Shown here piece by piece: positions 3,265-63,930 of a stretch of 64,000 bases of DNA. The notes beneath the pieces were generated by a model. That model did not search any database and had not been told where the DNA came from. It saw only the letters and a program-made list of their open reading frames with translations. Each line of letters opens with the position of its first letter. The stretch's first letter is position 1. Source of the stretch: Phorcus lineatus (lineage: Eukaryota > Mollusca > Gastropoda > Trochida > Trochidae); contig OV121092.1 in assembly GCA_921293015.1 (NCBI GenBank), positions 47,267,064 to 47,331,063 of the forward strand, written 5' to 3'. The translations under genes were made by a program, and so were the position numbers.

Positions 3265-3272
3265 TATTTAAA
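3265..3272 (+). promoter_or_regulatory. TATA-like box upstream of secreted-protein gene 1
   Basis: TATTTAAA lies about 135 bp upstream of the chosen ATG at 3407. A transcription start about 30 bp downstream, near 3295-3305, would leave a ~100-base leader. The paralogues at 9 kb and 16 kb also have a TATA-like box upstream, of a different sequence and closer to the ATG. Position and motif are seen; promoter activity is inferred. Confidence 0.5.
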
Positions 3273-3406
3273 CCCGACAGGATGCAAGGAGGAGTCATAA
3301 TCAACACACACAGATCACAACCTCCCTCACTGCACCCTGTGTGTATGTAGAGTGTAAGACATTGCCTCTTGCTATATCCCTCACCATACATATCACTCGT
3401 CTAGCA

Positions 3407-9734: not shown

Positions 9735-9787
9735 TGCTGTGGAGTGATCACTGGAGTGAAATGTGATGTGTTGAGAGTTCATACTGG

Positions 9788-9794
9788 TTTTATA
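9788..9794 (-). promoter_or_regulatory. TATA box of secreted-protein gene 2
   Basis: TATAAAA on the minus strand, 54 bp upstream of the ATG. The whole leader and TATA region is repeated almost exactly upstream of the 16-kb paralogue, so both copies probably share regulation. Confidence 0.6.
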
Positions 9795-9945
9795 CTGCAC
9801 AGACAGGGGTGCAGCTACCTGATTGTTTAGTGGCTCCCCAGGCGTTACGTGCATGATGAGAGAGATTTGTTGGCTAGGCGATAGAAAATAATTAAAAGTC
9901 AATTAGCGCCGCCGATTACCCTAGGGGCACTCAGGGTTGTAAGTA

Positions 9946-13626: not shown

Positions 13627-14935
13627 TTACCTAGGTTCCTTAATTTTACTGGATTTTTTTAGGAACGTAGCTGGGGACATTTTCTTGCTGTACGGTATTT
13701 CCAAAAGTACAAGTATAGGTAACACTTTTTGTCTGAAGTCATTATTAAACGGGCAAGTGAGTAAAACATGAAACTCGTCTTCACTTATAGGAATTATACA
13801 CAAAGGACTTATTCTCTCCCTTGTAGGCATCTGACACTTTCTACCTTCCAAAATCATGAGGTTATGACCTGAACAACGAAATTGTGACAGCGAAATACGA
13901 TAAACCTGGATATTTATACAAGTTAAATATTCCTCAAAGAGATTATTTAACTTACTACTTCTATAAAATGTTAAGCTTGAATACCTATCGATAACCTCTG
14001 AGTAAGACTGTTTGTCAATATCAATACATCTTTGTCTAATCATAGTTATGAAATTTCTTCCCTCTTCCGCACCTTGGCAATGTCATTTCCAAAGCTCTAT
14101 CGAAAAAGAAGCGTTTTAACTTTTAAGGCCCAACAGTCAATTCCTCTTTCAGCAAGATTGAATGGATACAAATATACATGTTGAAGAATAAAGTTATCAC
14201 TATGGGACAATAATATAATCCGATATTTTATAACTATAAACTAAACCAAATTCACTTCTAGCAACAATATTTGGGACGCATCATCTCAACCGAGGAATCA
14301 ATTTACAGAATTTATCGTGAATAATCTTTGTTTGGTTAACGGGGTGGAAACCCTTAACCTCAGATCCATGAAGCAAGATAGGGATAATTTTGATGTCTAA
14401 AGTGTCTAACAGAACATAAATAGTTAAGTTATCAAAATTATGAATTCTTTGTTTTAACATTCAGACGACTTCCCAAGCTTGTAAGGACAACACCTTTTGA
14501 CTAGTAAACCACGACCCTGAACTGGACAAATGAACTCCCAAATATTAATAACTTACCGTTCAGCGAAAAAAATTCATATTTCTTCAACTTTTTACCTTTC
14601 CGAAAATGTATTTGGTCTTATCCAAGTTAATACGTAGTTGCCACTTATCACAATAACATGACATTTTATTCAATCTCTTCCTGAGCCAAATGACAGTGCT
14701 ATCAAATAGAATGATATCGTGAGCAAGGAGAAGTATTAACATATTCAGAACGCCAATATCAATACACCATTGACCATCTGCATTTTGAAACTTGACAATA
14801 TCATTAACATAGAAAGAAAACAAGAAATGAGACAACTGGCAACCCTGACGGACCCCGAATAAGCAGTCAAAGAATGGAGTGCAGCCTTCAAGCGAAACAC
14901 ACGATGAAACGTTCTCCTACATATTGCGAATCAAT
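13627..14935 (-). pseudogene. Decayed non-LTR (LINE-type) retrotransposon, RT and C-terminal region
   Basis: Reading on the minus strand, 14.92-14.58 kb gives FDCLFGVRQGCQLSHFLFSF followed by YVNDI, which is the classic non-LTR RT motif (GVRQG, LSPFLF, ND). Then comes LLAHDIILF, where the catalytic YADD should be, and CDKWQLRINLDKTKYI, the next RT motif. After a broken stretch, 14043-13627 encodes RCSGHNLMILEGRKCQMP and EDEFHVLLTCPFNNDFR, matching the Cys/His-containing C-terminal region of such elements. The YADD-to-LAHD change and frame breaks show it is inactive. It abuts the right copy of the secreted-protein duplication. Confidence 0.75.
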
Positions 14936-15260: not shown

Positions 15261-16172
15261 TTAGAAGGCTAAGATGCCCATAGACTGTTGCCCTTGGTTA
15301 CGGCCGGAAGGAGGTCCGGACAGAGACTGGCCTTGAACTTGACTAGGGGACCCAAAAGCTTGATTTTGTCCTTGGCCCATCATCATGTCTGCGTTGCTCG
15401 CTCCGCTGTTGAAGGGACTGTTTCCGAATCCTCCGCCCATAGCCCCGGAAGGTTGGAACATGTGACCGACGGTTGTGAAGGGGGTGGTAGCTCGCTGAGA
15501 GTCGAAGCCGATCTTGCAACAGAGTGGGATGGCGTCCATGCAAGTAGAGCCGGAGATCTGGTGAGCTGGACACAGAGCCATGCCCCGACCAGCCAGCTCA
15601 TCGAAGCGCAGATTGTCAACAGTCTCGGAGGAAGTGGCTGTCTGACCACTCATGATCCGGATGGGCGTTCCCACAATGCCGCGGGGCGTCTGGTTGCGCT
15701 GTCCCCACCAGGATGGCGTGTTATCGGACAGGATGTCGCCGAGGGCGCGACTCAGACACACTTCCTCGGAGCGGGAGAATCGCGTTACGACCAACTGGTA
15801 CTGGCCTTGCATCTGCGATCCAGAACCGGAAGTAATGCGTGCTTCCAGGCGCAGACGCCCCGCGTTAGCAAATCTGTTTCCCATCATGCCAAAGCGACCC
15901 CAGGGGTTGTTGCTAGTACTTCCGGTACTGAAGGTGATGCGCATGTCATCGTTGTGTGAGTTGGCGGCGGTGCACGTGAGGAACTGCTGATTGTCCTGCT
16001 GCTGTTGTCCTCCAAACATTCCAGTTCCCCAGGGCGAGGCTCCTCCCCAGGCCCCTCCCAGCTGACCCTGCCCCCCTTGAAGCTGGCCCCCCATCCACTG
16101 GGCGGGCACTAGAGACGGGCACACTAGTCCCAGGACGGCTACTACGGCTACAACTGATCCACTGGAAGACAT
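15261..16172 (-). CDS. Secreted Gly/Gln-rich six-cysteine protein, paralogue 3
   Basis: The product is 303 aa from the ATG at 16170-16172, beginning MSSSGSVVAVVAVLGLVCPS as in paralogue 2. It differs from paralogue 2 at a handful of residues (for example VPAQW for VTAQW, DNQQF for DDQQF, an extra Arg in the tail). The six-cysteine core, NQT sequon and tail ending GILAF are retained. It is intronless and GC-rich. Near-identity of coding DNA against more diverged flanks suggests either recent duplication with selection or gene conversion. Function is unassigned, as for the other two copies. Confidence 0.85.
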   Translation of the reverse strand: MSSSGSVVAVVAVLGLVCPSLVPAQWMGGQLQGGQGQLGGAWGGASPWGTGMFGGQQQQDNQQFLTCTAANSHNDDMRITFSTGSTSNNPWGRFGMMGNRFANAGRLRLEARITSGSGSQMQGQYQLVVTRFSRSEEVCLSRALGDILSDNTPSWWGQRNQTPRGIVGTPIRIMSGQTATSSETVDNLRFDELAGRGMALCPAHQISGSTCMDAIPLCCKIGFDSQRATTPFTTVGHMFQPSGAMGGGFGNSPFNSGASNADMMMGQGQNQAFGSPSQVQGQSLSGPPSGRNQGQQSMGILAF

Positions 16173-16225
16173 TGCTGTGGAGTGATCACTGGAGTGAAAT
16201 GTGATGTGTTGAGAGTTCATACTGG

Positions 16226-16232
16226 TTTTATA
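16226..16232 (-). promoter_or_regulatory. TATA box of secreted-protein gene 3
   Basis: TATAAAA on the minus strand, 54 bp upstream of the ATG, in the same context as the box at 9788-9794. Confidence 0.6.
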
Positions 16233-16390
16233 CTGCACAGACAGGGGTGCAGCTACCTGATTGTTTAGTGTTCCCAGGTTCCCCAGGCGTTAGTCCTACG
16301 TGCCTTGTTAGGACTGTTTGATAGCGAAAATAATTAAAAGTAAATTAGCACTTACGACTTCCCTCAGGGCACTCAGGGTTCTACGTTTTC

Positions 16391-29175: not shown

Positions 29176-30805
29176 CCATTGACTCAGGAAATCTGAAATT
29201 TGAAAGCTACCAATCACCAGCTACATTAACCACCGATCACCAGCTACCAATCACCTGTTACATTAAGCCTCACAGCTACCAATCACAAGCTGCATTAAGC
29301 CTCGTAGCTACCAATCATCTGCTACATTAAGCCTCACAGCTACCAATCATCTGCTACATTAATTAAGCCTCACAGCTACCAATCACCAGCTACATTAACC
29401 ACCGATCACCAGCTACCAATCACCTGTTACATTAAGCCTCACAGCTACCAATCACAAGCTGCATTAAGCCTTGTAGCTACCAATCATCTGCTACATTAAG
29501 CCTCACAGCTACCAATCATCTGCTACATTAAGCCTCACAGCTACCAATCATCTGCTACATTAATTAAGCCTCGCAGCTACCAATCATCTGCTACATTAAG
29601 CCTCACAGCTACCAATCACCAGCTACATTAAGCCTCGTAGCTACCAATCACCAGCTACATTAAGCCTCACAGCTACCAATCACCAGCTACATTAAGCCTC
29701 ACAGCTACCAATCACAAGCTAGTTTAAGCTTCGCAGGTACCAATCACGAGCTACATTAAGCCTCACAGCTACCAATCACAAGCTGCATTAAGCCTCGTAG
29801 CTACCAATCACCTGTTACATTAAGCCTCACAGCTACCAATCACAAGCTGCATTAAGCCTCGTAGCTACCAATCACCTGTTACATTAAGCCTCACAGCTAC
29901 CAATCACAAGCTAGTTTAAGCTTCGCAGGTACCAATCACGAGCTACATTAAGCCTCACAGCTACCAATCACAAGCTGCATTAAGCCTCGTAGCTACCAAT
30001 CACCTGTTACATTAAGCCTCACAGCTACCAATCACTAGCTACATTAAGCCTCACAGCTACCAATCACAAGCTGCATTAAGCCTCGTAGCTACCAATCACC
30101 TGTTACATTAAGCCTCACAGCTACCAATCACCAGCTACATTAAGCCTCACAGCTACCAATCATCAACTACATTAAGCCTCACAGCTACCAATCACAAGCT
30201 GCATTAAGCCTCGTAGCTACCAATCACCTGTTACATTAAGCCTCACAGCTACCAATCACCAGCTACATTAAGCCTCACAGCTACCAATCACCAGCTACAT
30301 TAAGCCTCACAGCTACCAATCACAAGCTAGATTAAGCCTTGCAGCTACCAATCACGAGCTACATTAAGCCTCACAGCTACCAATCACAAGCTAGATTAAG
30401 CCTTGCAGCTACCAATCACGAGCTACATTAAGCCTCACAGCTACCAATCACAAGCTAGATTAAGCTTCGCAGGTATACCAATCACTAGCTACATTAAGCC
30501 TCACAGCTACCAATCACAAGCTGCATTAAGCCTCGTAGCTACCAATCACCTGTTACATTAAGCCTCACAGCTACCAATCACCAGCTACATTAAGCCTCAC
30601 AGCTACCAATCATCAACTACATTAAGCCTCACAGCTACCAATCACAAGCTGCATTAAGCCTCGTAGCTACCAATCACCTGTTACATTAAGCCTCACAGCT
30701 ACCAATCACCAGCTACATTAAGCCTCACAGCTACCAATCACCAGCTACATTAAGCCTCACAGCTACCAATCACAAGCTAGATTAAGCCTTGCAGCTACCA
30801 AGCAT
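29176..30805. repeat. Minisatellite, ~32-bp unit, about 50 copies
   Basis: The unit is close to AGCTACCAATCACCAGCTAC followed by ATTAAGCCTCAC. Variants (CACAAGCTGC, CACCTGTTAC, CACCAGCTAC, CATCAACTAC, CACAAGCTAGATTAAGCC) recur in a fixed order as blocks of three to five units, so the array has higher-order structure. For example, near-identical stretches of ~250 bp at about 30047-30330 and 30495-30785 were duplicated as blocks. It is non-coding. Confidence 0.9.
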
Positions 30806-31215: not shown

Positions 31216-31516
31216 TGATATGAAGGAGACTGTTGTTTACTCTTCTCTGTCTGCGTAATGATATGAAGGAGACTGTTGTTTACTCTTCTCTGTCTGCGTA
31301 ATGATATGAAGGAGACTGTTGTTTACTCTTCTCTGTCTGCGTAATGATATGAAGGAGACTGTTGTTTACTCTTCTCTGTCTGCGTAATGATATGAAGGAG
31401 ACTGTTGTTTACTCTTCTCTGTCTGCGTAATGATATGAAGGAGACTGTTGTTTACTCTTCTCTGTCTGCGTAATGATATGAAGGAGACTGTTGTTTACTC
31501 TTCTCTGTCTGCGTAA
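31216..31516. repeat. Seven perfect tandem copies of a 43-bp unit
   Basis: The unit starts TGATATGAAGGAGACTGTTG and ends CTCTGTCTGCGTAA. All seven copies (301 bp) look identical by eye, which points to very recent expansion or an assembly artefact. It lies upstream of the first visible VOPP1/WBP1-like exon. Confidence 0.9.
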
Positions 31517-32416
31517 TGATCTTATCACTTGATCCAGCCAATTGATTATGATGTTAGCAACTGCCCAACAAGCCAATGATGCCATGACATGTGAGAATTA
31601 GGCGTGTTTGTTGACGATAATTAGAGACAGGTTTGTCGCCCAACAGAGACTTGATATAGATTGTGGAGGCATCACATGTCAGTGAGTGGCTGAAGGTCTA
31701 GTTATGACTTTCTGGGATAAAACCAAGCTGCCGTTCCTCCATGGAAACGTGAGTTTTTGATGATTAAACCACTTCAGATTTTAGTTGTGCGTCTTAATTA
31801 CCTAAAACTTGTGTCTATTTATAAGATGTTTTATTGCATTACACTCTTAGATTCCTGCTAGGTTTCACATGGAGTTGATATAGCCCTTGATGTTTTATCA
31901 AAACCTTGTTCAGAAAACATTACTTTTGACCTGTGAGATAATGATGATCTATTCTTTAACCTGATCGTCCATATCTCCAGCTGTGTAACCTACAATGGCA
32001 TATACTTGTATTAAGTACTTTTTATGGTGACTGTAATTCTTTCTTGTTTGATTGTGCTGTTTTATTAGACCTCCTTAGAATTTCCATACTAATCTGTAAT
32101 AATAGCCTCAATACGTCCAGATTATGACCCCAATAGTATACTTTCTCCTCGGGTCCACTGGGTCCGTATGTATCAACATCCTCAACGTTACCTCAACGGT
32201 TCAGGTTGCTTCAACCAAGCCTCTTTCTGAAGTTTGCTTCATTTCAGTGTTAAGGCGGCCAGTTTTTCAAACCCACAAAAATAGGCGGAAAACCTATCTC
32301 TTTAAACCTTACCTCCATTAATTTGTATATGCACCTTATGTCATCATATCATGATCATTATTATTATGAATTGATTACATTACATTATATTTAACTTTTG
32401 TCTCTTTTTGTTTAAG
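31517..32416. other. Probable upstream intron of the VOPP1/WBP1-like gene
   Basis: No exon could be firmly identified. The missing signal-peptide exon of the gene that continues at 32417 must lie here or further upstream. A GTGAGT donor after ATGGAAAC near 31748 is one weak candidate. Confidence 0.35.
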
Positions 32417-35400: not shown

Positions 35401-38400
35401 TAACATATTGTTGTCTCTATTAACACATATATACACATATTCTCCACATTATAGCAAAGTATTACCGTACATCACATGTTTTTAAATTCATTTCTCTTCG
35501 AATTCAGTTCAGACTGCTCAGGTAGATGAACTTCAGCCAATGTTCTGGGTAGTGGTGGGATGTTCTGTCGGCGGTGTCGGTACATGACGCTTTTTTTGTG
35601 ATTGTATAAAAAATATTAGATTTAATGAGCGGGTCAGTTCAGTTCATTGATTAATTAAGGGTGGTCAGCACAGCTCAGCTAAGTAGTATTGTGATTGATT
35701 CTGTCTTTTGGGAATTCTGTCATATGGGAATTCTGTCTTACGGAACAGAATCAAAATGACTTGAAGGTGTGTCATGTCCAATCTGAAGTTATAAGTTTAT
35801 GTATTCATTATTATATAAAGTAAAGTTCAGATGATAAAAACATGTCAATGTTACAAAATGTTTTCACTTATTTACAGGACAGCCATGACCAGGCGTAAAT
35901 ATAACTTAACTTTAAACAGAATAAAAAGAAGGATATTAAATCGGCCTCTAGCAGAGGTAAGCAATACTATAGACTGTCTTAAACACAGTACACCTATCAA
36001 GAAGAGAGCAATAGATCCATCATATATTTCTGAAATTTCACCAATCAAAAAATCAACTCATGTTGAATTGCATCCTAATATTTCTGACATTTCCACATGT
36101 GACAAGAGTGAAGCTAACCTACATCATAAACTTGTGTTTGGATCTTCAAAGGAAGACAGTTTTTCTTCTTATGAATCATCAAACAAAACTTGTCTAGAAC
36201 ATCCTGAGATAAGTTGCACATGACTTTGTGAGATTTGTGGGAAATTATTATTTATTGATTATTAAAATATTAATGATGAATTTTGAAGAGAAAAACTGTC
36301 AGGATCTTTGGCCCTAAAAGCAAAAAATGAAGGCTGAAAAGATCCTCAAATTTCATTAACAGTTTTGAAATTATTTTACATTTATTGATATTGGCTCTTG
36401 TTTTATTAATTCACATGAAGGACATCAAATTGAATGAATATTTTTCTTTCCCAGAATCATCTGTTCGATTCAAAAAAAAGGAGGAGGTGTGCAAGAAAAT
36501 CTCCAACAGGATTATCAAACCCACATGAACCAGGAAAAGGGGGTGTTGGCATCAGACATTACCATAAAGTAAATGAATCCAAACTAAATCCACTTGTTCG
36601 TGCTGGTTTGCCTGTTGCACTGGCAAGTCCAGTTTGGTCAAAATGAAAAGACATAAGCGCACATTGTACAAATTCCTGTCTAAAGAGACACATGTGGAAT
36701 TGAAATTCTCTAAATAGTAAAACAATATTGTACATATCAGTCACTTGAAATTTTAATAAAGTGGGCTTTACATACTATTGATTGCTAATAATGTGATAAA
36801 TATCAGAGCTTACATGCTGTGCATTCATCATTCAGACAAAATAAATTGTAATTTGATTTGATTGCAATAAGTTCGTTTATTTAATAATAATAAAACTGGT
36901 TATACGAGAATGATCAATTAGAGTAAATGAATTGTTTGCAATCGAACTCAGATGAATGGTCAAAATTTTATGCTTTTATCAGGAAAGAAATTTGTACATT
37001 AACATATTAATTGTCAAGGGTTTTGTATATATAGTTTATAGTTAGTTGTACAATTCTATTCTTACGGGGCCTACATGAATTGTACTGTATCTTTGTGTAC
37101 AAAAAAAAATTTCTGTAAATTGTTATTAACTGTTTTGAAGGTCTATGAGGATAGATTGGCTTAATGACATGGCCAGCAACAGTATGTTATCCTTGAGGCG
37201 TCAGCTATAAACATTAAAAAATTTCACATATGCTACATTACTGCTTTGTTTATAGCAGTTCGAAAATATGTACATTACATATAGGTGCTAATATTTACTG
37301 TAGGCTAAACTTGATAGCAGATTATAAAGATATGTTTTAACCTATCATTTCATATGCAATTCTTTCTCCTTATATAATAAATCATAAGAGACTGATGATG
37401 TACAGAGAAAATGACCATGTTTTTATTCAGAAGTATGCATTATATGCAAATTGTACATGAAAACATATATGTCAACAATTCTTGTAAGTGATTGGATATT
37501 TTGTGTCAATAAATAATAATGATGATTATTTACAAAGTATTCTTAAATATTTTCTATTTCTTTTATACACCACTTTCAAGTGACTTTATCATTATCAACA
37601 TTGTAGATGGGTACACATTTCCTTAGAAAATTAACTTAAGGACCAGGTTTTATACTTGAGTGAAATCAATCAATCTTTATAAACATTATTAAACACTATA
37701 AGTAAGCAATATGACATTTGTATGGAATTTTCACTCATGTACAAGCTCCAGCTAGTTGAACTGATATAAATGATATGATTAACATTCAATATCAAGTTTT
37801 CAAATTTCCTCCCATGAATCCTTAAGATTTTCTTTTAAACATTTCATGCCTTTCAGGTGCCTTTGCAAATTGAAATTATCTCTAAAGGCAGATCCGCACA
37901 AGTCACATACATAACCTCGAATGTTCCCATGAACTTGATCAACATGCCTTCTCACAGCATTTCGCCATTTGCTTTGAAAGGGACAGTCTTTGCACCCATA
38001 CATAACTGGAGATTCTTGATGCATTATTGAGTGTTGCTTAAGTTCTGCTTTATGTGAAAAGTATTTTTTGCATACATGGCAATCAAATGTTTTATTATGT
38101 GTTAACATATGCCGTTTCAGATTTGATTCAGTTTTACAGGCCTTATCACAATGCTCACATTTAAAAGATAGACCCAGATGAGTCTTTACATGCAACCTCA
38201 TGCCCCTGAAAGTTGCAAATATTTGACCGCAACTTTTACACTTGCAAACACCTGTTACATTATGAATTTTAGCTTTATGCTCTTTTAATTCTTCTTGACA
38301 AAAAAACTGTTGTGTACATTGAGAACAAGAAAATTTAAACTTTTTCAGATGCTGCCTTTTCTTGTGAGCTGACAATGAGCATATGCTTTTGAAGGCAATG

Positions 38401-41400
38401 TCACACTTCTCACACTTGATGTGTTTCACTATTGGCAAACCTGAAACATTAAAACAAAGTCAATGTAGAATTTCTTTTATTTAAATTATGACATGTTTGT
38501 CAGAAAGACTTGAAATTAAATATTATGTCAAGAATTTAATGACCAGTAAATTTAACTGTAAAAGTAACCATTCAGTTACATCAATTCAACACATCACTTT
38601 TATTTGGGTTAAATCATCCAGTTTGAGTTGCAAAATTTTTATCTGTTCAAACATTGTGACATAGAATTATGAGCCTGAAGTTTTCTTGCCTGGCATTAGA
38701 TTGTCATTGACATCTTCATCACATGAGTCTGGAATAGTGGTGGGCTCATCAGAGTCAGAATTCAGCAGTAAGTTGGAAAGAGCATCAATGTCATCTTTTG
38801 GTACCTAATGAAATATATATTACAATTTTTGTATGTATGAGTGAAATTCTATTCTCTTAAACACAATGAACATATTTATATATATTTTTTTTCTGTGATA
38901 AAATTATCATAAATGATAATTACCGTTTATTTGGGTTTTTTTCATGTACATACATGCTCTAATAAATAAGTTTATTTTGTTAAGAATGCTGAACAATTTT
39001 AGGCAAAGCATAGAAAGATGAAATGGAATTATTGGGGTCTTTTTGATACTCAGGTATTTTGTAGATGATTTTCGTTCAGTGATAGAAATCATTCACAAAA
39101 ATCAATTCATTAAATAAAATCTCATCAAGAACATAAAAGAGACGATTATAGTATTTCGGCACATATTAAAAAAATGTTATATTTTGAAGGAATATTATAA
39201 CCAGCGTAAAACAATAAAATAGAATATAGGCCTATATCGAAAACAACATAGTTTCGCCTTCGGTAGAAAACTTTTGGCGTGTACAACGATCGATTTGATG
39301 CTCATGTACATTTAAAATTGACTTGCATACTCTCATTTTAGTATCATGCACTCAAAGCATTTATAAAGCACCTACAAAATCACTTAATATTTACAGCGCC
39401 ATGAAAAAATCTTACCGGAGGCTCTGGCGTACTGAGAGCGGCCATCTTCCTCAGCGTTTCTAGCGTAAACAAAAACAAAAGACTGGGCGCCTTCAGTCAA
39501 ACCGGGTAGATCGTAGAGATGCGCTGCGCTAACGCGAGGTTATTGAATCCGTTTTGAGGTTATTCGTTCCGTTTTGAGGTTATTTTTACCGTGTACGAGG
39601 TTATTACTACCGTTTTGGAGGTTATCTAATCCATTTGTGCGGTTATTTGTTCCATTTGGAGGTTATTTGATCCGTTACCTTGGTAGGCCTGAGATGTAGA
39701 CAATATTTTCTTTACATAGATTTAACATTAGTCTGAGAGTGAATCTGTTCTATTGCAGCTGTTTCCCCCCTTACGTGTGTTGCACCAACCATCACACCTG
39801 TTGCTATGACAGCGAGTCCCAGGACAACTACCGGCGCGCCTACAAGCTGCATGTGTGGAACATGTGGTACTTCTGGTGAGTGATGTCTGCGGACGTTGCT
39901 TTACTTGAAAGTGTTTTGAGCTTTTATCAAAGCAGAGGATAGGCAGCTTTGTCTCGTGTTGAGAACTGTTCAGTGGAAAGTGAAGTGAAGGCAATGGGAC
40001 AGATCTCCAAGCACTGTATTCTTTTGTAGCACGGTTGCATATTGCGACAGAGAATGAAGATTGAAGCATGTCGTTCCTTTCAGCAGGATAATAATTTTAA
40101 GTGTGATCAAGCATTTCCTAGGGATATTGGTTATTATATTGAGCTATCTTCTGTATAAGTGTTCATGTCTCCAAATAATCGTGTATTCCAAATAATCGTG
40201 CCGGTATTCTGAATCAATACCTACTGAAGGAGTAATTTCTATCCTGAAGTATGAAGAAGGTTACCCCTTTCCTTTGAATCATTTTTACAGCTCCACTGGT
40301 TTGTTGTCATTTTAATCCTAATACCCCTAACTCAGGTCCTCAGTCGCAAAGATGTAAGAATGTATTAATTTGTAAACACTTTCAACGCTTATAAACTCAA
40401 GACTTCTTTTGTCCTTAATGAAACCTCCTTTCTCAATATCGCAGGTTTGTCATCATATTCATCTTGATGTCGTGTTTTGGCGGCTGTGGTTACTACCGGC
40501 GACGGCGCATGGCAGCCATAGAACAACAGCGCCAGACAGTCATCACAACCAGGCGAAATCCACACTCCCGCCGCTCCAACCGAGCCTCTCACTCGTATCT
40601 TGCCTATGTGGGTCCAGCTGCATCAGAACCACCAGACATCTCCTTCCTGCCCCCACCTTACTCACAGGTCAGTCTCGGGTCTTGTTGTCTTTGTATTTTA
40701 TGTGGAACATAACTTCCATCGGACATTCCTGTTTATACAAAAGTTAGATATCTTTAATTTCTATTCATAAGATGTATCTGAGGGTAATATTTTTGCTGCT
40801 GGTGAAATCATTTATTTCATAAAGAAAACTTTAGAAAAGTGGATTCGTTTATCACCAATAACATTTTGATTCCTACCCAACTTAAACCGTATGAATTTCT
40901 GTGAAGAATTCTGTGAAGAATTCTCTGAAGATGTGGAATTAATATGACTATTATAAATAAGCTAAGTCCATGGTTGCATGTCACAAGTTGATGACTGATC
41001 TATTTATGATAAAGACGTAGAGATGGTGTGTCTGTTGCAGGTTGTAAACCTCCCTAGCTCTTACCCGGACAACAAGTCCGATCTGCCACCATACCCCGGA
41101 CCTCCTGTTATAGAACCCAGCTATGCAGGTGGGTTCACAAGCTTCATCAACCAGTCACTAATTAGGCATGAAGACTATTTGTCCTGCTCATCTTTTTTCA
41201 AAACAGACGGTAGACTAGAATTTTATCTATAAAAAAGTTTAATGATTTATTGTTCCTTCATCCATAATATTTTTTTTCTTTGGGCTCCTAATTTCATGTG
41301 TATTCAGTCAATCTAGACTTGCTGAATGTGGACCTAGACTGTATAAAAGGCCCCTTATATACACAGTCATGAAGCAGGACAAAACAGACGGTGAAAAGGC

Positions 41401-47600: not shown

Positions 47601-48136
47601 CCCGAAATAATAACATCGATATCATGAAAGGCTGAAATCATCCAGTCTTCTCTGCCTTGGCTATTGTCTATTGGAATTTGTAAGTGTAAATTGTAAATAA
47701 TATTTGTAAAGTGTAAAGTTATTAAATAATTAATATTTGAAAAAAATTTTTTTGCGGGGATAGCGCTAGACCATGTCAGCTGCTTGTTTTTTTAATCAGT
47801 TATTTTGATTTATTCAGTAACAATTGTTATGGTAATATTGTTTACACAAATAGTCAGTTTTTATAGACAAATTATATGTCTAGAAATACATATCTAAACC
47901 ATTTAACTTACAAAATTAATGAAATCCTGAAAAAGGTTATAACGATTTTTACTTTTCATCAGCTGAAATGAATTGATGCAAATATGCCAATAAAATGTTT
48001 ACATACCCCTTGTTTGTTCTGAGTATTTCAACTAGGTAAGACCTGTTGTCCATCTCAATGAGGTTGTTAGAAGAGGGGTTCGCATCAGAGGTTTTTAATG
48101 AGAGGTTTTCTAAAATAAAGGTTTTTTTTTTATAGT

Positions 48137-49305
48137 GGTTCTGATTAGAGTGGTTCTGATGAGAGTGGTTCTGATGAGAGTGGTCTGATGAAAGTTCCGA
48201 TAAGAGTGATTCTGATGAAAGGGTTCTGATGAGAGTGGTTCTGATGAGAGTGGTTCTGATGAGAGTGGTTCTGATGAGAGTGGTTCTGATGAGAGTGGTC
48301 TGATGAAAGGGCTCTGATGAGAGTGGTTCTGATTAGAGTGGTTCTGATGAGAGTGGTTCTGATAAGAGGGTTCTGATAAGAGGGTTCTGATGAGTGGTTC
48401 TGATAAGAGGGTTCTGATGAGAGTGGTCTAATGAAAGGGTTCTGATGAGAGTGGTTCTGACAAGAGTGGTTCTGATGAGAGTGGTTCTGATGAAAGGGTT
48501 CTGATGAGAGTGGTTCTGATGAGAGTGGTTCTGATGAGAGTGGTTCTGATGAGAGTGGTTCTGATGAGAGTGGTTCTGATGAGAGTGGTTCTGATGAAAG
48601 GGTTCTGATAAGAGTGGTTCTGATAAGAGTGGTTCTGATGAGAGTGGTTCTGATGAGAGTGGTTCTGATGAGAGTGGGTCTGATGAGAGTGGTCTGATGA
48701 GTGGTTCTGATAAGAGTGGTTCTGATGAGTGGTTCTGATGAGTGGTTCTGATGAGAGTGGTTCTGATGAGAGTGGTTCCGATGAGAGTGGTTCTGATAAG
48801 AGGGTTCTGATAAGAGGGTTCTGATGAGTGGTTCTGATAAGAGGGTTCTGATGAAAGGGTTCTGATGAAAGGGTTCTGATGAGTGGTTCTGATGAGTGGT
48901 TCTGATGAGAGTGGTTCTGATGAGAGTGGTTCTGATGAGAGTGGTTCTGATGAAAGGGTTCTGATGAGAGTGGGTCTGATGAGAGTGGTTCTGATGAGAG
49001 TGGTCTAATGAAAGGGTTCTGATGAGTGGTTCTGATGAGAGTGGTTCTGATGAGAGTGGTTCTGATGAGAGTGGTTCTGATGAGAGTGGTTCTGATGAGA
49101 GTGGTTCTGATGAGAGTGGTTCCGATGAGAGTGGTTCCGATGAGAGTGGTTCCGATGAGAGTGGTTCCGATGAGAGTGGTTCCGATGAGAGTGGTTCCGA
49201 TAAGAGTGGTTCCGATAAGAGTGGTTCCAATAAGAGTGGTTCCAATAAGAGTGGTTCCAATAAGAGTGGTTCTGATAAGAGTGGTCTAATGAAAAGGTTC
49301 TGATT
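48137..49305. repeat. 15-bp minisatellite (TTCTGATGAGAGTGG), about 75 copies
   Basis: Most units are exactly 15 bp, with variants of 12-16 bp (for example TTCTGATGAGTGG, TTCTGATGAAAGGG, TTCCGATGAGAGTGG). Runs of single subtypes show local expansion. Because 15 is a multiple of three, long stop-free frames appear on both strands (SEPLSSEPL, SDESGSDES), but I regard these as by-products of the repeat. Confidence 0.9.
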
Positions 49306-53660: not shown

Positions 53661-56600
53661 TTAAGTGTTTCGTATAATTCCACTGGGTGCTTTCTTCTTC
53701 CACTGCCACAACTGGCGGTCTATACCCGAACACGGTCTCATCTGGAGCTTCTTACCATCTATGGAAACTTCCGCACACTTCTGAGTGTTCACATGGACCA
53801 GCGTGTTATCCTGAAAAATAAAGATGAATCAAAGTAATGTCTTGAGGAGTTTTATAAAAGATCATACGAAGGAGAAGAAGTAACAAGTAACACGGATAGT
53901 AACTTTTGTTATAGCTATTATTGCAACTTTTGTCCAAAGCTGCGATATGTGTGGTTTTTTGGACACAACCCGGGAACAAAGTTCAGACCCATTTAGTCCT
54001 CCTTTATTTTACACCTCTGGATATTACTGCATCCAGGTTTCAGTAGCGTCTGGACTTGTTGTGGGTTGTTGTCATTATCATTCAGTATTTATCATTCAAG
54101 ACTAGTATTTACACCATTACCTTTCATTCATAGCAGTGAAGAAGGTCCAACTTATTCTCTTTCAATTCTTAAATGTATAAGTACTCTCCAAGTTACAGGT
54201 CGAGCAACAGTCATTTCATTCATTGTTTCAAAGATAAATTTCAGTGCAATGGAGAGTTTAGAATCTTTACCTCTTTATACTGCCACTCTTGGTTTCCCTT
54301 TTGGCCATGACAGGGATAGATGATGACGTCATCACCGCCAGAGTAGTCAAGGCAACCGTCATCACGTCTGATCTCCCCTGCCTTACTCATCATCCAGTAC
54401 TGCAACAATACACAGGCATAAAGCTTTACTCTCTCTCTGTTGATTGCAGCACAAACACTGCACTGTGCTTTTCCCTGTATCTGTTCTTCTTGCTACATAC
54501 TTGATAAATAGTAGCAATAGGATATTTGAAGATTGTTGGTCAAAGACTAAACCAAAGAAACAAACTGCTTCCCTAGCACACTACATAAGCTAGTGACCGT
54601 CATGGTTGAGACCTGCCCCACAAGACATATAATGAGTCTCCATCACTGGCTAACTTTAGACTTGCTCCAACCAACAAATTCATGATTTCAATAACCTGCA
54701 CTAACTGTGACTTTGATTTGAGTGAAGCCCTCATCAAGGAGCAGTGGGAGATTCCTCCTAGGAGATTTCTGATAAGACAATCAAGTTCAGCTGTATAGAC
54801 TGAAGAGCTGGCACAGAAAGTGAGGAAATGCAGCAGAACTTGAACAGGCCGGTGATTGAGACTGGCGCATATACGTCACATATTCTGAATGGACTGTTAC
54901 TGATGTAAATATAACCATGTTGACTTGTTGCCCCCTGTTTTTATGTGAGGGATCACCTTGAATATATTACACATCTGGATTCTGCCTTGGTTATAACCTA
55001 TGTGAGGGATCACCTTGAAGTTATAATACATCTGGTTTCTGCCTTGGTTGTAACATATGTGAGGGATTACCTTGAAGATATTACATATCTGGATTCTGCC
55101 TTGGTTGCTACATATGTGAGGGATCACCTTGAAGATATAACATATCTGGTTTCTGCCTTGGTTGCTACGTATGTGAGGGATCACCTTGAATATATTACAT
55201 ATCAGGTTTCTGTGACAATTGCAAGAGTTGCAAGATTAACAAGAGAACTGAGGAATCACTATTCAACAATGACATACCTGGTTTCCGCCCTGGTTGTGAC
55301 AGGGCCACATGTTGACGGCCTTGTGGTAGTTGTGGTGGTCCACCGGACTGTCAATACACATGGGCTTGGCCTTGCTCCGGATCTGAAGCACCATCATATG
55401 TTACAGAGAGGGACAGCGTATGGAGATTAAACATTGCTGAATGAAATGGCCCTAGTTGTCCACCTAAATTTGCCATCACTTCAAAACTCCTGATTAACAC
55501 ACTTAAGCTGCTGTCAGAGTTTGTGAAATCTAAAGCTGATACTGTCACACCTCATATTAACTTAAATCCTGTCTTAGGCATCTAAATATTTTTTTATCTC
55601 AGATAATTATGTTTATAAAAGAGGAATACATTCCTTAACATGAAATAGTTATCTGGATTGGAATGGTGGATCAATGAAAGACTATGGAATGATACTGAAC
55701 TCTGCATTGGCTTTGAACTTGACCATAGGTATAATTTATTTTCCTCTCAATGAGGTTTGGACAGCTCTATAATAATAAGATAATTTCTGCCTTAAATAAA
55801 AAAACTCAACATTTTCGTATTAAGGATCACAATATCTAGTGTATTAGAAATTCTTGAACACTTTTACATTCCTCATTTTCAAATATTATATCAAAACCAT
55901 GAACAAGTTTTTAATGTCTTTTTATCTAAATATGTCAAAATTGAATTCATATACATATCATATTTTATTGACATAGAAAATAAAGATAGAGAAGCTCACC
56001 TCGCCAGACGCTACAGCTTCTCCAGGCACGAAGAGGTCAGGGTAGATGTTCTTCACGAACCAGTCGAAGCTCTTGCACTGCAGCCTCTTTCTGAGGGCCC
56101 GCCTCTCGCTCACGTCACCAAAGTCTCCCTGCCAGATGATATTACATCATTTTATATGGGAACTGTAAATAATGCCACTCTTAGAAGTGAGTGGTTTGGT
56201 ACTGAGAGAAGTAAAAAAATACAGATGACATGATATGATAAGGTATTCCGTATTGCCACGGCTTGCCACGCCCCTCTGACCTTTAACCCGACCCAATTCA
56301 GCGGCCTGAATCCCTATATTCCATCTTGAACTAAACATGATAAAAATCCCAAATTATAATGATAATGTAAAATGCTTACCAAATCAAAATTGAATCTTTC
56401 ATAATAGTAGTTTTTGTAGTCATCCATCCAAACCTCGGCCAAACGGACTGAATTTTTCTTGACTACGTTGACACCCGTCTTCCACTTGTAGGGACTTCTC
56501 TTGCGGAATATGTGACCCACGTGGGAACATGGGATGATCTCTAGAGATCCTCCACACATCCATATCTGCACGTGGAAAACAACATGATTATGATGGATGG

Positions 56601-59600
56601 ATTTATAGACATGATGACTGCCTATATCTTAAACATGTATTTCTGTTTCTTTTAATGTTTCTTGAATTAGAAAATTCATCATATATGAATATACTACTTG
56701 ATCTTAATTCTATTCATACAGTACGAGATGATTGAAGGTGAGAGGTAAATGTCTAAACCAGATATGTAGGTTTCATAGTTGATTTGTTAAATTAAGTTAG
56801 AAAAAACATCTTTTACATTGCATTACTGCATAACACGTGTGTAATATCTGATAGAATTCAAGTGACAAAATTTACAATATTTGACCAAATGCAGAAGACC
56901 TACCCTAAATTAAAGCTCATCAGATCTAAAAGACCTACCTGTACCCAAAATGAAAGCTCATCAGATCTACGAGACCTACCCAAAATGAAAGCTCATCAGA
57001 TCTACGAGACCTACCCAAAATGAAAGCTCATCAGATCTACGAGACCTACCCTAAATGAAAGCTCATCAGATCTATGATACCTACCCTAAATGAAAGCTCA
57101 TCAGATCTATGATACCTACCCTAAATGAAAGCTCATCAGATCTACGAGACCTACCCTAAATGAAAGTTCCCAGATCTACGAGACCTACCCTAAATGAGAG
57201 CTCATCAGATCTACGAGACCTACCCTAAATGAGAGCTCATCAGATCTACGAGACCTACCCTAAATGAGAGCTCATCAGATCTACGAGACTTACCCTAAAT
57301 GAAAGCTCATCAGATCTACGAGACCTACCCTAAATGAAAGCTCATCAGATCTATGATACCTACCCTAAATGAAAGCTCATCAGATCTACGAGACCTACCC
57401 TAAATGAAAGCTCATCAGATCTATGATACCTACCCTAAATGAGAGCTCATCAGATCTACAAGACCTACCCTAAATGAAAGCTCATCAGATCTACGAGACT
57501 TACCCTAAATGAAAGCTCATCAGATCTACGAGACCTACCCTAAATGAAAGCTCATCAGATCTATGATACCTACCCTAAATGAAAGCTCATCAGATCTATG
57601 ATACCTACCCTAAATGAAAGCTCATCAGATCTATGATACCTACCCTAAATGAGAGCTCATCAGATCTACGAGACCTACCCTAAATGAAAGCTCATCAGAT
57701 CTACGAGACCTACCCTAAATGAAAGCTCATCAGATCTACGAGACCTACCCTAAATGAGAGCTCATCAGATCTACAAGACTTACCCTAAATGAGAGCTCAT
57801 CAGATCTACGAGACCTACCCTAAATGAGAGCTCATCAGATCTACGAGACTTACCCTAAATGAAAGCTCATCAGATCTACGAGACCTACCCGAAATAAAAA
57901 GCTCCTCAGATCTACGAGACCTACCCTAAATGAAAGCTCATCAGATCTACGAGACCTACCCTAAATGAAAGCTCATCAGATCTACGAGACCTACCCTAAA
58001 TGAAAGCTCATCAGATCTACGAGACCTACCCTAAATGAAAGCTCATCAGATCTATGATACCTACCCTAAATGAAAGCTCATCAGATCTATGATACCTACC
58101 CTAAATGAAAGCTCCTCAGATCTACGAGACCTACCCTAAATGAAAGCTCATCAGATCTACGAGACTTACCCTAAATGAAAGCTCATCAGATCTACGAGAC
58201 TTACCCTAAATGAAAGCTCATCAGATCTATGATACCTACCCTAAATGAAAGCTCCTCAGATCTACGAGACCTACCCGAAATAAAAAGCTCCTCAGATCTA
58301 CGAGACCTACCCTAAATGAAAGCTCATCAGATCTACGAGACCTACCCTAAATGAAAGCTCATCAGATCTACGAGACCTACCCTAAATGAAAGCTCATCAG
58401 ATCTACGAGACCTACCCTAAATGAAAGCTCATCAGATCTATGATACCTACCCTAAATGAAAGCTCATCAGATCTACGAGACCTACCCTAAATGAAAGCTC
58501 ATCAGATCTACGAGACCTACCCTAAATGAAAGCTCATCAGATCTACGAGACCTACCCTAAATGAAAGCTCATCAGATCTATGATACCTACCCTAAATGAA
58601 AGCTCATCAGATCTATGATACCTACCCTAAATGAAAGCTCCTCAGATCTACGAGACCTACCCTAAATGAAAGCTCATCAGATCTACGAGACTTACCCTAA
58701 ATGAAAGCTCATCAGATCTACGAGACTTACCCTAAATGAAAGCTCATCAGATCTACGAGACTTACCCTAAATGAAAGCTCATCAGATCTACGAGACCTAC
58801 CCTAAATGAAAGCTCATCAGATCTACGAGACCTACCCTAAATGAAAGCTCATCAGATCTATGATACCTACCCTAAATGAAAGCTCATCAGATCTATGATA
58901 CCTACCCTAAATGAAAGCTCCTCAGATCTACGAGACCTACCCTAAATGAAAGCTCATCAGATCTACGAGACTTACCCTAAATGAAAGCTCATCAGATCTA
59001 CGAGACCTACCCTAAATGAAAGCTCATCAGATCTACGAGACTTACCCTAAATGAAAGCTCATCAGATCTACGAGACTTACCCTAAATGAAAGCTCATCAG
59101 ATCTACATGACCTACCCTAAATGAAAGCTCATCAGATCTACGAGACCTACCCTAAATGAAAGCTCCAAGTTCTCTCCTCCCCAGATGTCCATACCCGGAT
59201 CGTATGTTCCGAGATAGTTAAAATATTCTCGACTGATCGCAAACAAACCCCCGGCCATCGTAGGGGACCTGCATAGAACAGAAACAGGGTCAATAATGAG
59301 TTATCATTTTTTTTATTACAAGTTCTTTCATTCATTTTCTTCAACATTGCAAATCTAATGGTGGCATGGACAAACCCCTATCTTCATTACAATTTCCTCA
59401 ATTCACTGCATCAATTCTTATAAATGCAATATTACAAACATTAGCACAGAATGTTGTGAATAGTTAATAATAGTTCAAAGTAAATATTTTATTCCTTTAA
59501 AAATTTAGTCTAACAGAAGCAAGGCAGATGTGCATGTTTTCTCAGGTAAATATAACAGCATCTATAAATTGTGGAGCATCATATTCAACACACTAAATGA

Positions 59601-62600
59601 TTCAAAACTGAATCATTCAACACAACAACTGCATCCCAGCACCACAAGCGATGTGCTAACAGCAGGGTCATAGATTGTAGGTTCTTAATGGGTGAGGCGT
59701 ATTTTAATGGATAATCTTTGATGGTGTATAATATAATTTACATCAGAATGAAACAAAAAAATTAACTGGTTTTACAGATTATCATACAGACTCATTGGTG
59801 AACATTGGAACATTACTGTTTAAGAGTTAAGGTATATTATCTCAATTATCAAATATTGATTGATTTTCCCTTAAATTAGAAGCTTATAACTTGAACTTAT
59901 ATTATGAGAACATTGTAACTCTAAATCAAAGTCCTGCAGCGATGATAGATATAACATCAAGGCCACACAAAGGTGAAGGTCACACAAAGATGAAGATAAA
60001 GCTTGGTGAAGGTCAATGCTGCAGAAAAGTCAGAAAGATCGAATATTTGCCTGACAACAAACCTAATGGGATCTGTGGGAGAAGTCCGATTGGCTAGCAT
60101 ATATTTGGGAGCTGGCATCCAGTTGAAAGTGAGCGTCCAATCAAACTTGCCCACATGAATTTGGTCGGACCCAAACCAGAAATAACTTAAAGTGTCATCA
60201 TTAATGTTGTCGATAACAGGGCAAACCACGCTATGTGGGGAACTTCCTATTCTTGCAACCAGGGGCTCTAGCCAGCCTGTTGAAAGAGGCGAAAAATATT
60301 TAAAATTTAGTTCTATAAATTGTCTTTTTGAATTTGTAAGTAATCATTCTGTAATGGAAGTTGGAAGCTGATCTCAAGAGGTTTTCCTAAAATGGAAGTC
60401 AAAGTAGCTCTATATAAATTGAAGCAAACAGCAAACACTATTTGAATTTTATCCTATAATGAGTTATACAAGTTAGATTGACTGAATAAAATGAATTAAG
60501 TTTGTACAAAAGTCCACGAGAGGTATAACAGGCGAGATATTAAGACAAAGCGATCAAAGACTGGCGAAAACAAACTGGGAAGCCAAGATTTGCCAGGACC
60601 AACACCTTGTTACTAGGTTATAGAACACAATTTTGAATTTAGGTCAAGGTAAAAAAGTATTGGGTCAAGGTCAGGTCATAGCAAGGTGAAGGTCACTTGC
60701 CACAGGGGATCAATACTGGAATTCCGATTTTTGGTGATATATGGGGGCGGCATCATCCAATTGAAGGTCAAAGTCCAGTCAAATTTGCAAACTTGGACTT
60801 GATTGGCAGGAAACCATTGCAGACCGAAAGTGTCGTCGTTAATATTGTCGATGACGGGACAGACAACATGAGTTTTATCATCAGCGATTCTATTAAGCAG
60901 AGGCTCAAGCCATCCTGTGAGAGAAACAACCATCAACATTTAGAAATCAAGTTTTGGATGGAAGTGAGATTTGCGAGGTGACATGGATGTCATCATAATT
61001 TCTTCCCTGTTCTAAAAGCAAATTAGAAATATTGAGTTAGCTTTCTGATACGCCAGGTTTTGCTGTTGCTATGACTTGACAAGTTTGAATGAGTTCTTCA
61101 AATTGTTATTCATTGACCATTTCTGTCAAGATGGAGCTTTAACTAATTTGTAAAGTTGTTGTATAGTTAGCAATTAAGAGGGTAGTTAAACTCAGTTCAA
61201 AGCCTTTATGTAAGTCATGAAAGTTATTTGGAATATGTAAACACACATTTTCATACATCTTTCTTCCCCCAACATGTTCTGATTGAAGAAAAGCCAACCC
61301 ATAAAATGTGTAACCAAACAATTTTCTCTTTTCAAAGTTTCCATAAGGAAGTGTTTCTCCTCAAAAAATACAGACAATGATTTAGTGCTTTTAAGTTTTA
61401 CATCGAAAATCAATCTTCAGTACAGAATCATCCAGCAATTGCATGTGTAGATACACAGGACAAGATTCAAAACAAGTCCAGTCATGACGCCTGGTTTATC
61501 AGATGGAACAACAGAAACATCTCTGTTTCAGAAGACGACAGCAGACATCCTGTTTCTTTTGGGGTGATCGCCACATGCACTTATGGAGTCAACAATAGAT
61601 ATTTTATAACAAGCAAGTGGTTGGCATATTTAATGGTACCTTTTGCTATCAGAAATACATAAGCAAACTGTCAATCTCTTTGACATAAGATCTAACATAC
61701 TGCTCTATTTCAGACATGTAGTAATACCTAATGTGGAGCATTAGTTAAGATCTTATTTCAATGAGATTGTCAGATTGTAAAACTATAACTACTATTCAAA
61801 TAAGGGCCTATAAAACAATTTGTATTGAACCTTTCTAAACCCAGTGGGGTATTCAGAAGAGGAATTTAATCCTCCGTCATACCCCCATTCATGCAAACAA
61901 AACTGAAAGAAAGCATGCAGCACAAGCAAAATAACTCAAAGTAAACTAAAAAATAAACAGAAAATTTTTAGGTCGCATATCAGCTGATTGTCTTGTACCA
62001 AAGCACTAAAGAGCATTCACTGAGAACCGCTTCCCTTTTCTTCATATCATTATGAGTACAGTCAGTCACCAGTTGTTTTTGTTTAATATGTTAGTATTGT
62101 TATCAGTTGTTAACATGCCTTGTGTTGTGTTATTGGTCAACTTCTTTCATTAAAGGAAAACTGTCAAACTGTTATATCAATATATATGATTAAAAATCCA
62201 AATTATGAAAAAAATATAACATAAAACATTTTGTTATTGTTGATCTGAAGTGAACAAATTAACCTAAAGTCAAAAACAATATTTAAATCATAGTAACTTT
62301 TTATATCATCTTATACCTTTAAATATGGTTATAGTAATGAAATGGTATTTCACTAAACATAAATGCTTTTCAACTTAATGGAAGACAAAGGAAATTCACA
62401 ATAACACAACACTGGCAAAACAGATGTAACAGATGTTGGCATTGGTCAGATTACATGAGAGATGTAAGAAGGTTGGCTATTTGCTGAGAGGATAAGTAAG
62501 TGAAAACCAGACAGGAGGTTGGAAGAAATGGTGCAGAAAATACAAGCAAATTGTGAAGAGAAATTGAAATATACAAAATAGACTGATAGCTTAAGCTAAG

Positions 62601-63930
62601 TGCATCTGCATCATTATACCAGTATTCACACTGCATGAGAAATAGAAATTAAACACCTTATTAACTCAGCTAATTCATTCAAATACTTTTAAAACCTTTG
62701 ATAAAGTTTTCATGAAAAAGTTTCCTGACTGTTACAGTTCTCACCACGCAGAATTAACAAAAACACTGTAAATGTTAGATGTCAAGCTAGTAGTTACTTC
62801 CTAAGGCATACAGTTCTGATTGGAAGTGTTTGAAAGTCAATGAAGTGAAATAAAATCATCACATCTACCAGCTGTAGGCTTGTTGGCCAGTGACAACAAA
62901 GGGTACGTAAACAAAGGAAAAACTCAAGCAACCACCATAAAACATTATAAAGGGGAGACAACCCTTTGCCAAGGGGAGACAAATCAAACAACCACCACCA
63001 AAGGTTAGAAAATCATGTCATCTGCCATTGCTTCTGTATCAGTAAATATCTCATATGTTAGATTAATCTTTTCGTAAATATCAAACCAAAAATAAATAAA
63101 AACTGAAAACTGTTGCCATGGTGACAGACTGTTACCTGACAGGAGAGATATCATAAGGTCTGCGACTTCGCTCGTAATCAGGAATGCTATGCCATGTGAA
63201 CTGCAGGTTCCAGTCAAACCCTCCGATACTTGTCGCCTTGGCGCTGCCGTACTGATACTTAAATGAATCGTCTTCTATGACGTCAATTACGGGACACACA
63301 ACTATGCTTTTATTTTCTGCAATTCGATCCAGCATGGGCTCTAACCAACCTAGAAGAAAAGATTTTATGTGTGGAACAAATGAAAATTGTCTTTTCTGCT
63401 GTACAGTATTTGGTATGAAATGAAGCAATGTCTAAACAAATTGACTAGCGTCTTGAACAGTGAATTGACCTGAAATGTAAGGCATGCATTAGTATTTTCC
63501 CCCTATGTGAAATACTAATTGTTTAAAGTGCTATTGAGCAGGTACAGGCAATTTGAAAGTCTCATAATTAAAACCATGTCTTTTATCTCAATGCTTTTGA
63601 CGTTCCCTTTTCTAATGGTCTTTAATTTTGACAAACTCATAATTTGAAGTGTTATTTAGAGTTAAAAAGATGAAAAATGTACCATAATACTGACCAAAAC
63701 AATTATGTAAACATGATTTGGTATAATTCATATGATCAATTAATTAGCTTTTCACCAAGACCCACCTTCTGTACATTCACAATGTGAGTCTAGGAAAGTA
63801 ACGACATCTCCGTTTGCAGCAGCAAACCCCAGCAGACGAGCTCGTATCAACCCCTCACGCTGCTTTGTACGTACAATCTTCACCACCTTCAGTTTTGCCA
63901 TGTATTCCTCAAGGGGCTTCTTGAGGTGGT
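53661..63930 (-). CDS. GALNT: Polypeptide N-acetylgalactosaminyltransferase (3' portion of gene)
   Basis: This Golgi type II enzyme starts mucin-type O-glycosylation by moving GalNAc from UDP-GalNAc to Ser/Thr. Exons in order: 63930-63766, one of three 214-bp alternatives, 59268-59151, 56565-56380, 56128-56000, 55382-55278, 54399-54271 and 53810-53661 (stop). Phases agree throughout, giving about 397 residues. Visible motifs: DSHCE, the DxH manganese site, in the first exon; GWLEP and [23 protein letters not shown]; and [10 protein letters not shown] with a metal-binding His. The C-terminal ricin-type lectin domain follows with three repeats: MCID with NQYW, GCLDYS with NQEW, and a degenerate KCAEVS with RQLW. 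The 5' part (cytoplasmic tail, membrane anchor, first half of the GT-A domain) lies beyond the window. The subtype is not resolved. One alternative exon has a GC donor, and two introns carry splice-site-derived minisatellites. Confidence 0.9.
54271..54399 (-). CDS. GALNT: GalNAc-transferase lectin beta-repeat exon
   Basis: This 43-codon exon starts [15 protein letters not shown] and contains [19 protein letters not shown]. The CLD and QxW motifs are intact, so this repeat is the best candidate for binding GalNAc on already glycosylated substrates. Acceptor TTGCAG and donor GTAAAG. Confidence 0.85.
54944..55205. repeat. Minisatellite (~55-bp unit, ~5 copies) resembling the end of the adjacent lectin exon
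   Basis: On the minus strand each unit contains ACAACCAAGGCAGAAACCAG or a near variant, which matches the last 21 bases of the exon 55278-55382 (ACAACCAGGGCGGAAACCAG). The rest of the unit is ATGTATTATAACTTCAAGG and GTGATCCCTCACATATG. Translated in the exon frame the copies read NQGRNQ against NQGGNQ in the exon. They lie in the intron just downstream of that exon. Confidence 0.75.
55278..55382 (-). CDS. GALNT: GalNAc-transferase lectin alpha-repeat exon
   Basis: 35 codons: [20 protein letters not shown] through [10 protein letters not shown], with acceptor TTCAG and donor GTATGT. CLD is CID here. The aromatic of QxW is supplied by the next exon (NQ then YW). Confidence 0.85.
56380..56565 (-). 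CDS. GALNT: GalNAc-transferase exon with CSHVGHIFR metal-site histidine
   Basis: 62 codons running [20 protein letters not shown] to [17 protein letters not shown]. It carries the second conserved catalytic-centre His of the family. Both intron phases are 0; donor GTAAGC. The next exon, 56128-56000, links it to the lectin domain ([20 protein letters not shown]). Confidence 0.85.
56892..59166. repeat. 35-bp minisatellite (~65 copies) built from an exon 3' end plus its 5' splice site
   Basis: On the minus strand the unit reads GAGCTTTCATTTAGGGTAGG then TCTCGTAGATCTGAT. The last 15 coding bases of the exon 59268-59151 (GAGCTTTCATTTAGG, Glu-Leu-Ser-Phe-Arg) and its donor GTAGGT are themselves the first unit, so every copy carries a candidate donor. 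About twelve units have GTAAGT in place of GTAGGT. The array fills about 2.3 kb of the 2.6-kb intron. Confidence 0.9.
59151..59268 (-). CDS. GALNT: GalNAc-transferase WGGENLE exon
   Basis: 118 bp, entering in phase 2. It encodes [20 protein letters not shown] through [11 protein letters not shown], the conserved acceptor and sugar-site loop of the family. Its last 15 bases and donor form the seed unit of the 35-bp array that follows. Confidence 0.9.
60063..60276 (-). CDS. GALNT: Alternative exon c of the GalNAc-transferase catalytic domain
   Basis: 214 bp, acceptor CAACAG, donor GTTTGT, entering in phase 1 and leaving in phase 2. It encodes [20 protein letters not shown], then [25 protein letters not shown] and SPTDPIR. 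It is fully open between the splice sites. It is more like exon b than exon a. Confidence 0.8.
60701..60914 (-). CDS. GALNT: Alternative exon b of the GalNAc-transferase catalytic domain
   Basis: 214 bp, acceptor CTCACAG, entering in phase 1 and leaving in phase 2. It encodes [43 protein letters not shown] and SIDPLW. The phase-matching donor is GC (CTGTG then GCAAGT); a GT six bases on would break the frame. The last residue becomes Trp where exons a and c give Arg. Confidence 0.8.
60915..63135. other. Intron between alternative exons a and b
   Basis: 2.2 kb without a further GWLEP-type exon that I can find. There is an X-box-like motif (GTTGCCATGGTGAC) at about 63112 and a GGGGAGACAA direct repeat near 62954-62983. 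Confidence 0.6.
63136..63349 (-). CDS. GALNT: Alternative exon a of the GalNAc-transferase catalytic domain
   Basis: 214 bp, acceptor TTCTAG, donor GTAACA, entering in phase 1 and leaving in phase 2. It encodes [47 protein letters not shown] and ISPVR. It is closest to the upstream DSHCE exon and probably the ancestral form, because GGF(D/N)W and PVR are the usual family residues there. Confidence 0.85.
63766..63930 (-). CDS. GALNT: GalNAc-transferase DSHCE (DxH) exon
   Basis: 165 bp encoding [40 protein letters not shown] and [15 protein letters not shown]. This is the nucleotide-sugar and Mn2+ site of the GT-A fold. It leaves in phase 1, which all three 214-bp exons accept. It is the most 5' exon in the window. 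Confidence 0.9.

Follow-up and report, generated by a model that had tools for sequence, protein, structure and literature searches.

A minisatellite at the end of a GalNAc-transferase exon in Phorcus lineatus repeats the exon's own 5' splice site in each of its 65 units

The stretch of Phorcus lineatus DNA analysed here (64 kb in total, referred to as the window) codes on its minus strand, from about 63.35 to 54.2 kb, for a polypeptide GalNAc-transferase. The closest solved chain is PGANT9 from Drosophila (6e4r, 3.1e-76), which aligns over 144/144 residues of a peptide spliced from three exons and shows the catalytic-domain similarity of a polypeptide GalNAc-transferase (GALNT, PGANT9-like). 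Furthermore, a ricin-type lectin part is present toward the C-terminus, since the piece 54244-54381 on the minus strand, the only lectin piece tested, matches Ricin_B_lectin (2.8e-07). Pfam searches with single exons were weaker than the PDB search with the spliced peptide. Here, the array-bearing exon described below gave Glyco_transf_7C (4.3e-05) on its own, exon A alone gave Glycos_transf_2 below the cut-off (0.0034), and exons B, C and the 186-nt exon, each searched alone, gave no match.

The gene also contains three tandem exons of 214 nt each on the minus strand, A (63136-63349), B (60701-60914, with a GC donor) and C (60063-60276), which have a common phase and code for the same catalytic segment of the GalNAc-transferase, corresponding to PGANT9 chain residues 170-238 (E 9.9e-24, 1.2e-13 and 2.1e-15, respectively). 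Since two of them together would destroy the frame, these exons look mutually exclusive.

Elsewhere in the window, three reading frames of 352, 358 and 342 aa (3272-4330 on the plus strand, 8826-9902 and 15261-16289 on the minus strand) are closely similar by eye and Q/G-rich (QWMGGQLQGGQ...); the first, the only one of the three tested, had no match in Pfam. A C2H2 zinc-finger reading frame lies at 37800-38459 and a reverse-transcriptase fragment at 14584-14916 (RVT_1, 4.7e-06, bit score under the curated cut-off), both on the minus strand.

The exon of interest, SPTMAGG..., spans 59151-59268 on the minus strand (118 nt, ending in phase 0), and its last 15 nt lie within the first unit of a minisatellite. 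It is followed on the same strand by an intron of 2585 nt (56566-59150), in which the array occupies 59150-56896 and only the final 330 nt lie outside it, by the next exon IWMCGG...FNFDL (56380-56565, 186 nt) and by the exon GDFGDV...VASGE (56000-56128, 129 nt). The 186-nt exon is of phase 0-0, and its skipping therefore preserves the frame.

The minisatellite was detected by TRF on the minus strand at 56896-59165 with a period of 35, 64.7 copies and 95% matches. A unit-by-unit cut yielded 65 units: 60 have a length of 35 nt, two measure 36 nt and one each 34 and 41 nt, while the last one is partial and was cut at 35 nt by the script. On the minus strand, the unit consists of the 15 coding bases GAGCTTTCATTTAGG, encoding E-L-S-F-R, and the 20 intronic bases GTAGGTCTCGTAGATCTGAT. 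Unit 1 begins at 59165 and is identical to the array consensus; positions 59165-59151 within it are the final 15 coding bases of the exon (ELSFR), and the donor follows at 59150. This agrees with the original prediction, whose span of 56892-59268 comprises the exon and the array, that the unit contains the exon's terminal 15 coding bases together with its donor. The 21-base core pattern GAGCTTTCATTTAGGGTARGT of the unit matched 62 times in the 64-kb window with up to three mismatches, all of them in the array and none elsewhere in the window, and 0 times in 100 shuffles; in viral contigs it had no exact match. Other minisatellites of the window lie at 5688-6519 (56 bp x 15), 29205-30801 (32 bp x 49), 31216-31520 (43 bp x 7, 100% matches), 48134-49304 (15 bp x 81) and 54942-55212 (57 bp x 4.8). 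Since minisatellites are this common in the window, it is less surprising that one of them landed on a splice site.

The end of the exon is fixed by protein comparison, because PGANT9 (6e4r) and the spliced three-exon peptide (144 aa) align gapless over the junction ELSFR/IWMCGG. According to this alignment, the authentic 5' splice site is AGG/GTAGGT at 59145-59153 on the minus strand (donor 1), with 59150 as the first intron base. The exon therefore really ends at donor 1, within the first array unit, as had been proposed beforehand. An exon end upstream of the array was considered and rejected. The GTs within the exon pair worse with U1 (best -7.0 vs -9.4 for donor 1, as rough duplex energies of the U1 5' end with the register not forced), and residues common to PGANT9 would be lost.

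The array is an exon-boundary minisatellite, in which unit 1 contains the authentic donor and each of the other units carries a donor as well. All 65 units have either GTAGGT or GTAAGT, so that the expected number of about 65 near-identical tandem donors was indeed found. As 9-mers, these donors are AGGGTAGGT (48 units), AGGGTAAGT (12), CGGGTAGGT (2), TGGGTAGGT (2) and CAGGTAGGT (1), which accounts for 65/65.

To determine the consequences of donor choice, the exon was spliced in silico from every one of the 65 donors to the next exon, and the frame was read. Only donor 1 leaves an open frame through the next exon (1/65). Use of donor 2 lengthens the exon by 35 nt, which shifts the frame and leads to a stop in the next exon, while donors 3-65 all (63/63) stop at one and the same TAG codon within the array, just as the original prediction had read the second and the later donors from the unit.

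What marks out donor 1 among these sites is its position, and neither its strength nor its accessibility. In strength it is tied with 47 other donors. The 17 donors that differ from it comprise 12 with an A at +4 (GTAAGT) and five with a U1-pairing base at -3, a position at which donor 1 does not pair with U1. Counted in register with G-U pairs allowed, donor 1 pairs at 8/9 positions and three donor types, found in five units, pair at 9/9. Its predicted accessibility ranks 64 of 65. The idea that donor 1 is stronger or more accessible than the rest was therefore rejected, on U1 pairing as well as on predicted accessibility. Furthermore, no RNA structure of the array that would hide its donors was apparent, since donor accessibility was equal or lower in 67% of 200 cases in which the non-donor bases of the unit had been shuffled, and eight units fold with an ordinary energy (46% of 200 shuffled units reached the same or a lower value).

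On the other hand, donor 1 is the donor nearest to the acceptor of the exon and gives an exon of 118 nt. Exon definition could decide the choice of the donor in such a situation. In addition, TAGGG, a motif of hnRNP A1, is present in 60 of the 65 units as counted from the unit types, and the stretch directly 5' of donor 1 is rich in purines (21/30 bases). It has been reported that hnRNP A1 favors those 5' splice sites that are intron-distal, whereas SRSF1 favors the intron-proximal ones and, when bound just 5' of competing sites, disfavors the intron-distal one (PMC5585400). By analogy, the effect of hnRNP A1 would help donor 1, whereas the purine-rich exon end together with the effect of SRSF1 might work against it.

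The history of the array can be read from the variation between its units. Over the 65 units, the partial last one included, 16 unit types are interspersed, and a block of eight, CCDEEAAA, occurs twice, at units 13 and 28. When the first 64 units are divided into thirds, the mean distance to the consensus grows away from the exon (0.91, 1.14 and 1.71); without one unit of distance 9, the last third has 1.35. Columns were compared among the 60 full-length units, leaving aside the four units of 34, 36, 36 and 41 nt as well as the partial unit at the end. Here, 9 of the 35 columns are variable, 3/15 in the coding and 6/20 in the intronic part. All six columns of the donor core are without variation in 60/60 units, but the same is true of 20 among the remaining 29 columns. 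With 26/35 columns invariant, selection on the donor columns is not visible in the 60 full-length units (P = 0.14). This variation resembles ordinary minisatellite turnover, and the array looks young and homogenised rather than maintained for its donors.

The arrangement is probably best explained by a duplication of the exon end that grew into a tolerated minisatellite, of which the first donor is used and the others are silent or leaky, possibly at a mild cost. A tandem duplication across the 3' end of the exon would have taken in 15 coding and 20 intronic bases. The duplicate would then have expanded and been homogenised to a 65-unit intronic minisatellite, whereby the exon's own donor was presumably copied into each unit. 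Most likely, nearly all productive mRNA comes from splicing at donor 1, since recognition of the exon by the spliceosome would start from the upstream acceptor and take in 118 nt as a unit, with donor 1 as the nearest donor. Occasional use of donor 2 or a later one would result in frameshifted or stop-containing mRNA, which would then be removed. The array would accordingly be tolerated and not selected, and a mild cost, if any, would be that less mRNA is produced or that the in-frame exon of 186 nt is skipped. In favor of a tolerated array are the identity of unit 1 with the consensus together with the conserved coding of ELSFR, the presence of a donor in 65/65 units and the single open frame among 65. 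Counting against the use of the first donor are that it is not the strongest, that it is predicted to be poorly accessible, and the report on SRSF1.

A considerably less probable explanation is that the array acts as a length rheostat. Here, more units would bind more U1 snRNP and splicing factors, and the length of the array would set the share of productive mRNA, either by slippage between donors or by skipping of the next exon, in a way that is used or selected. That 64 of the 65 donors are unproductive and that the next exon, with 186 nt, is in frame would fit to this. Human genes give further support: in ABCA7, expression has been reported to drop and skipping of exon 19 to climb with the length of a variable number tandem repeat (VNTR; PMC5954066), and more repeat units in CBS have been reported to lower CBS activity (PMC5188458). 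Nevertheless, the retention of a repeat unit in ABCA7 is described as independent of length (PMC5954066), and the donor columns of the array described here are under no constraint beyond that of the rest of the unit. Judged by ABCA7, length may thus tune productive mRNA in some form, since the precedent speaks against a slippage that depends on length, but for a length-dependent loss of the next exon and a lower expression.

Much less likely is an assembly artefact, by which the copy number, or the array itself, would be wrong. Arrays of near-identical units are indeed prone to collapse and expansion during assembly. However, the 16 unit types are interspersed and include the repeated eight-unit block, the exons on both sides belong to a gene that looks intact, and a collapse would understate the array and not invent it.

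In the full unit, the donor is preceded by a CTGAT that resembles a branch point, by a short pyrimidine tract and, one base before it, by an AG. The intron holds 57 copies of CTGA(T/G)GAGCT(T/C)TCATTTAGG, which resemble a branch point plus acceptor, and stretches of 36 nt from this AG to the next donor were found 55 times by a pattern that did not match units lacking this AG or differing in length; 55/55 are open in frame. If real, the array would be a bank of interchangeable 36-nt in-frame microexons, by which regulated alternative splicing would yield a new protein with 12 residues, or multiples thereof, inserted after ELSFR in the catalytic domain. This is highly improbable, since the 55 open stretches are not independent, their length and frame stemming from one young unit sequence, the distance of about 15 nt from branch point to AG is short, and the insert would hit the conserved catalytic domain where PGANT9 aligns gapless.

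The array can be compared with three human minisatellites. Because of these, one part of the original prediction does not stand: the anatomy and the unproductive later donors were read correctly, but the statement that no donor-site minisatellite of such size had been described is refuted by ABCA7, with up to about 427 units, as well as by CBS and IFI6.

The VNTR in intron 18 of ABCA7 has a 25-bp unit, includes the donor of exon 18 and ranges from about 12 to 427 units (PMC5954066), so that the Phorcus lineatus array is within its size range. In both cases, the authentic donor belongs to the array, which sets in where the exon ends, and the next exon is in frame; in ABCA7, a cryptic donor one unit downstream is described as used at a low level, shifting the frame (PMC5954066). 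The resulting one-unit retention is a minor isoform of about 2%, if the 'respectively' of the paper follows its order, and a block of translation raised the stop-containing transcripts (PMC5954066). Steady-state shares therefore understate the use of later donors. In contrast to the array described here, the ABCA7 unit begins at the GT, so that no coding bases are repeated, and the repeat is C-rich by description, polymorphic and linked to Alzheimer's disease (PMC5954066). As in ABCA7, a minor, length-independent retention of one unit and a length-dependent skipping of the next exon would be expected in Phorcus lineatus, and the precedent points to the 186-nt in-frame exon more than to donor slippage.

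A second case is CBS, for which a 31-bp VNTR has been placed at exon 13-intron 13 (PMC1395315); elsewhere it is called non-coding at the exon 13/intron 13 boundary (PMC5188458). The variant name c.1444_1467+7(16_21) implies 24 coding and 7 intronic bases (PMC2630376), and a donor in every CBS unit can be inferred from it. The unit thus spans the exon/intron boundary, and in composition, with 24 + 7 bases, it comes closest among the three to the 15 + 20 bases of the Phorcus lineatus unit. The differences are a different gene, a different unit and the 16 to 21 units in CBS (PMC2630376).

In the third case, the human 6-16/IFI6 minisatellite, a short unit, which is said to be 12 bp long, forms the repeat. 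The likeness is that multiple splice donor sites are provided by a minisatellite, as stated in the title of the original report (Turri et al., 1995), and according to a sentence citing it, two downstream repeat units act as donor sites (PMC4526556); the difference, besides the short unit, is that three mRNA species are reported to be made.

With respect to the protein, Drosophila PGANT9 (PDB 6e4r, 6e4q) is the nearest solved relative and is alternatively spliced as well. Here, the alternative exon 8A/8B of the fly lies in the lectin domain and not in the catalytic segment, and no donor array is mentioned for the fly gene in the parts of the report considered (PMC6115407). A donor-site minisatellite of an invertebrate was not seen in the open-licence literature, in a search that was not designed to exclude one.

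With 64 unproductive donors out of 65, all of them near-equal in sequence, RNA from this locus would measure position against strength in the choice of a 5' splice site, and it would also show whether the length of the array affects the next exon. The arrangement is known in print for human ABCA7, CBS and IFI6, and Phorcus lineatus adds another case.
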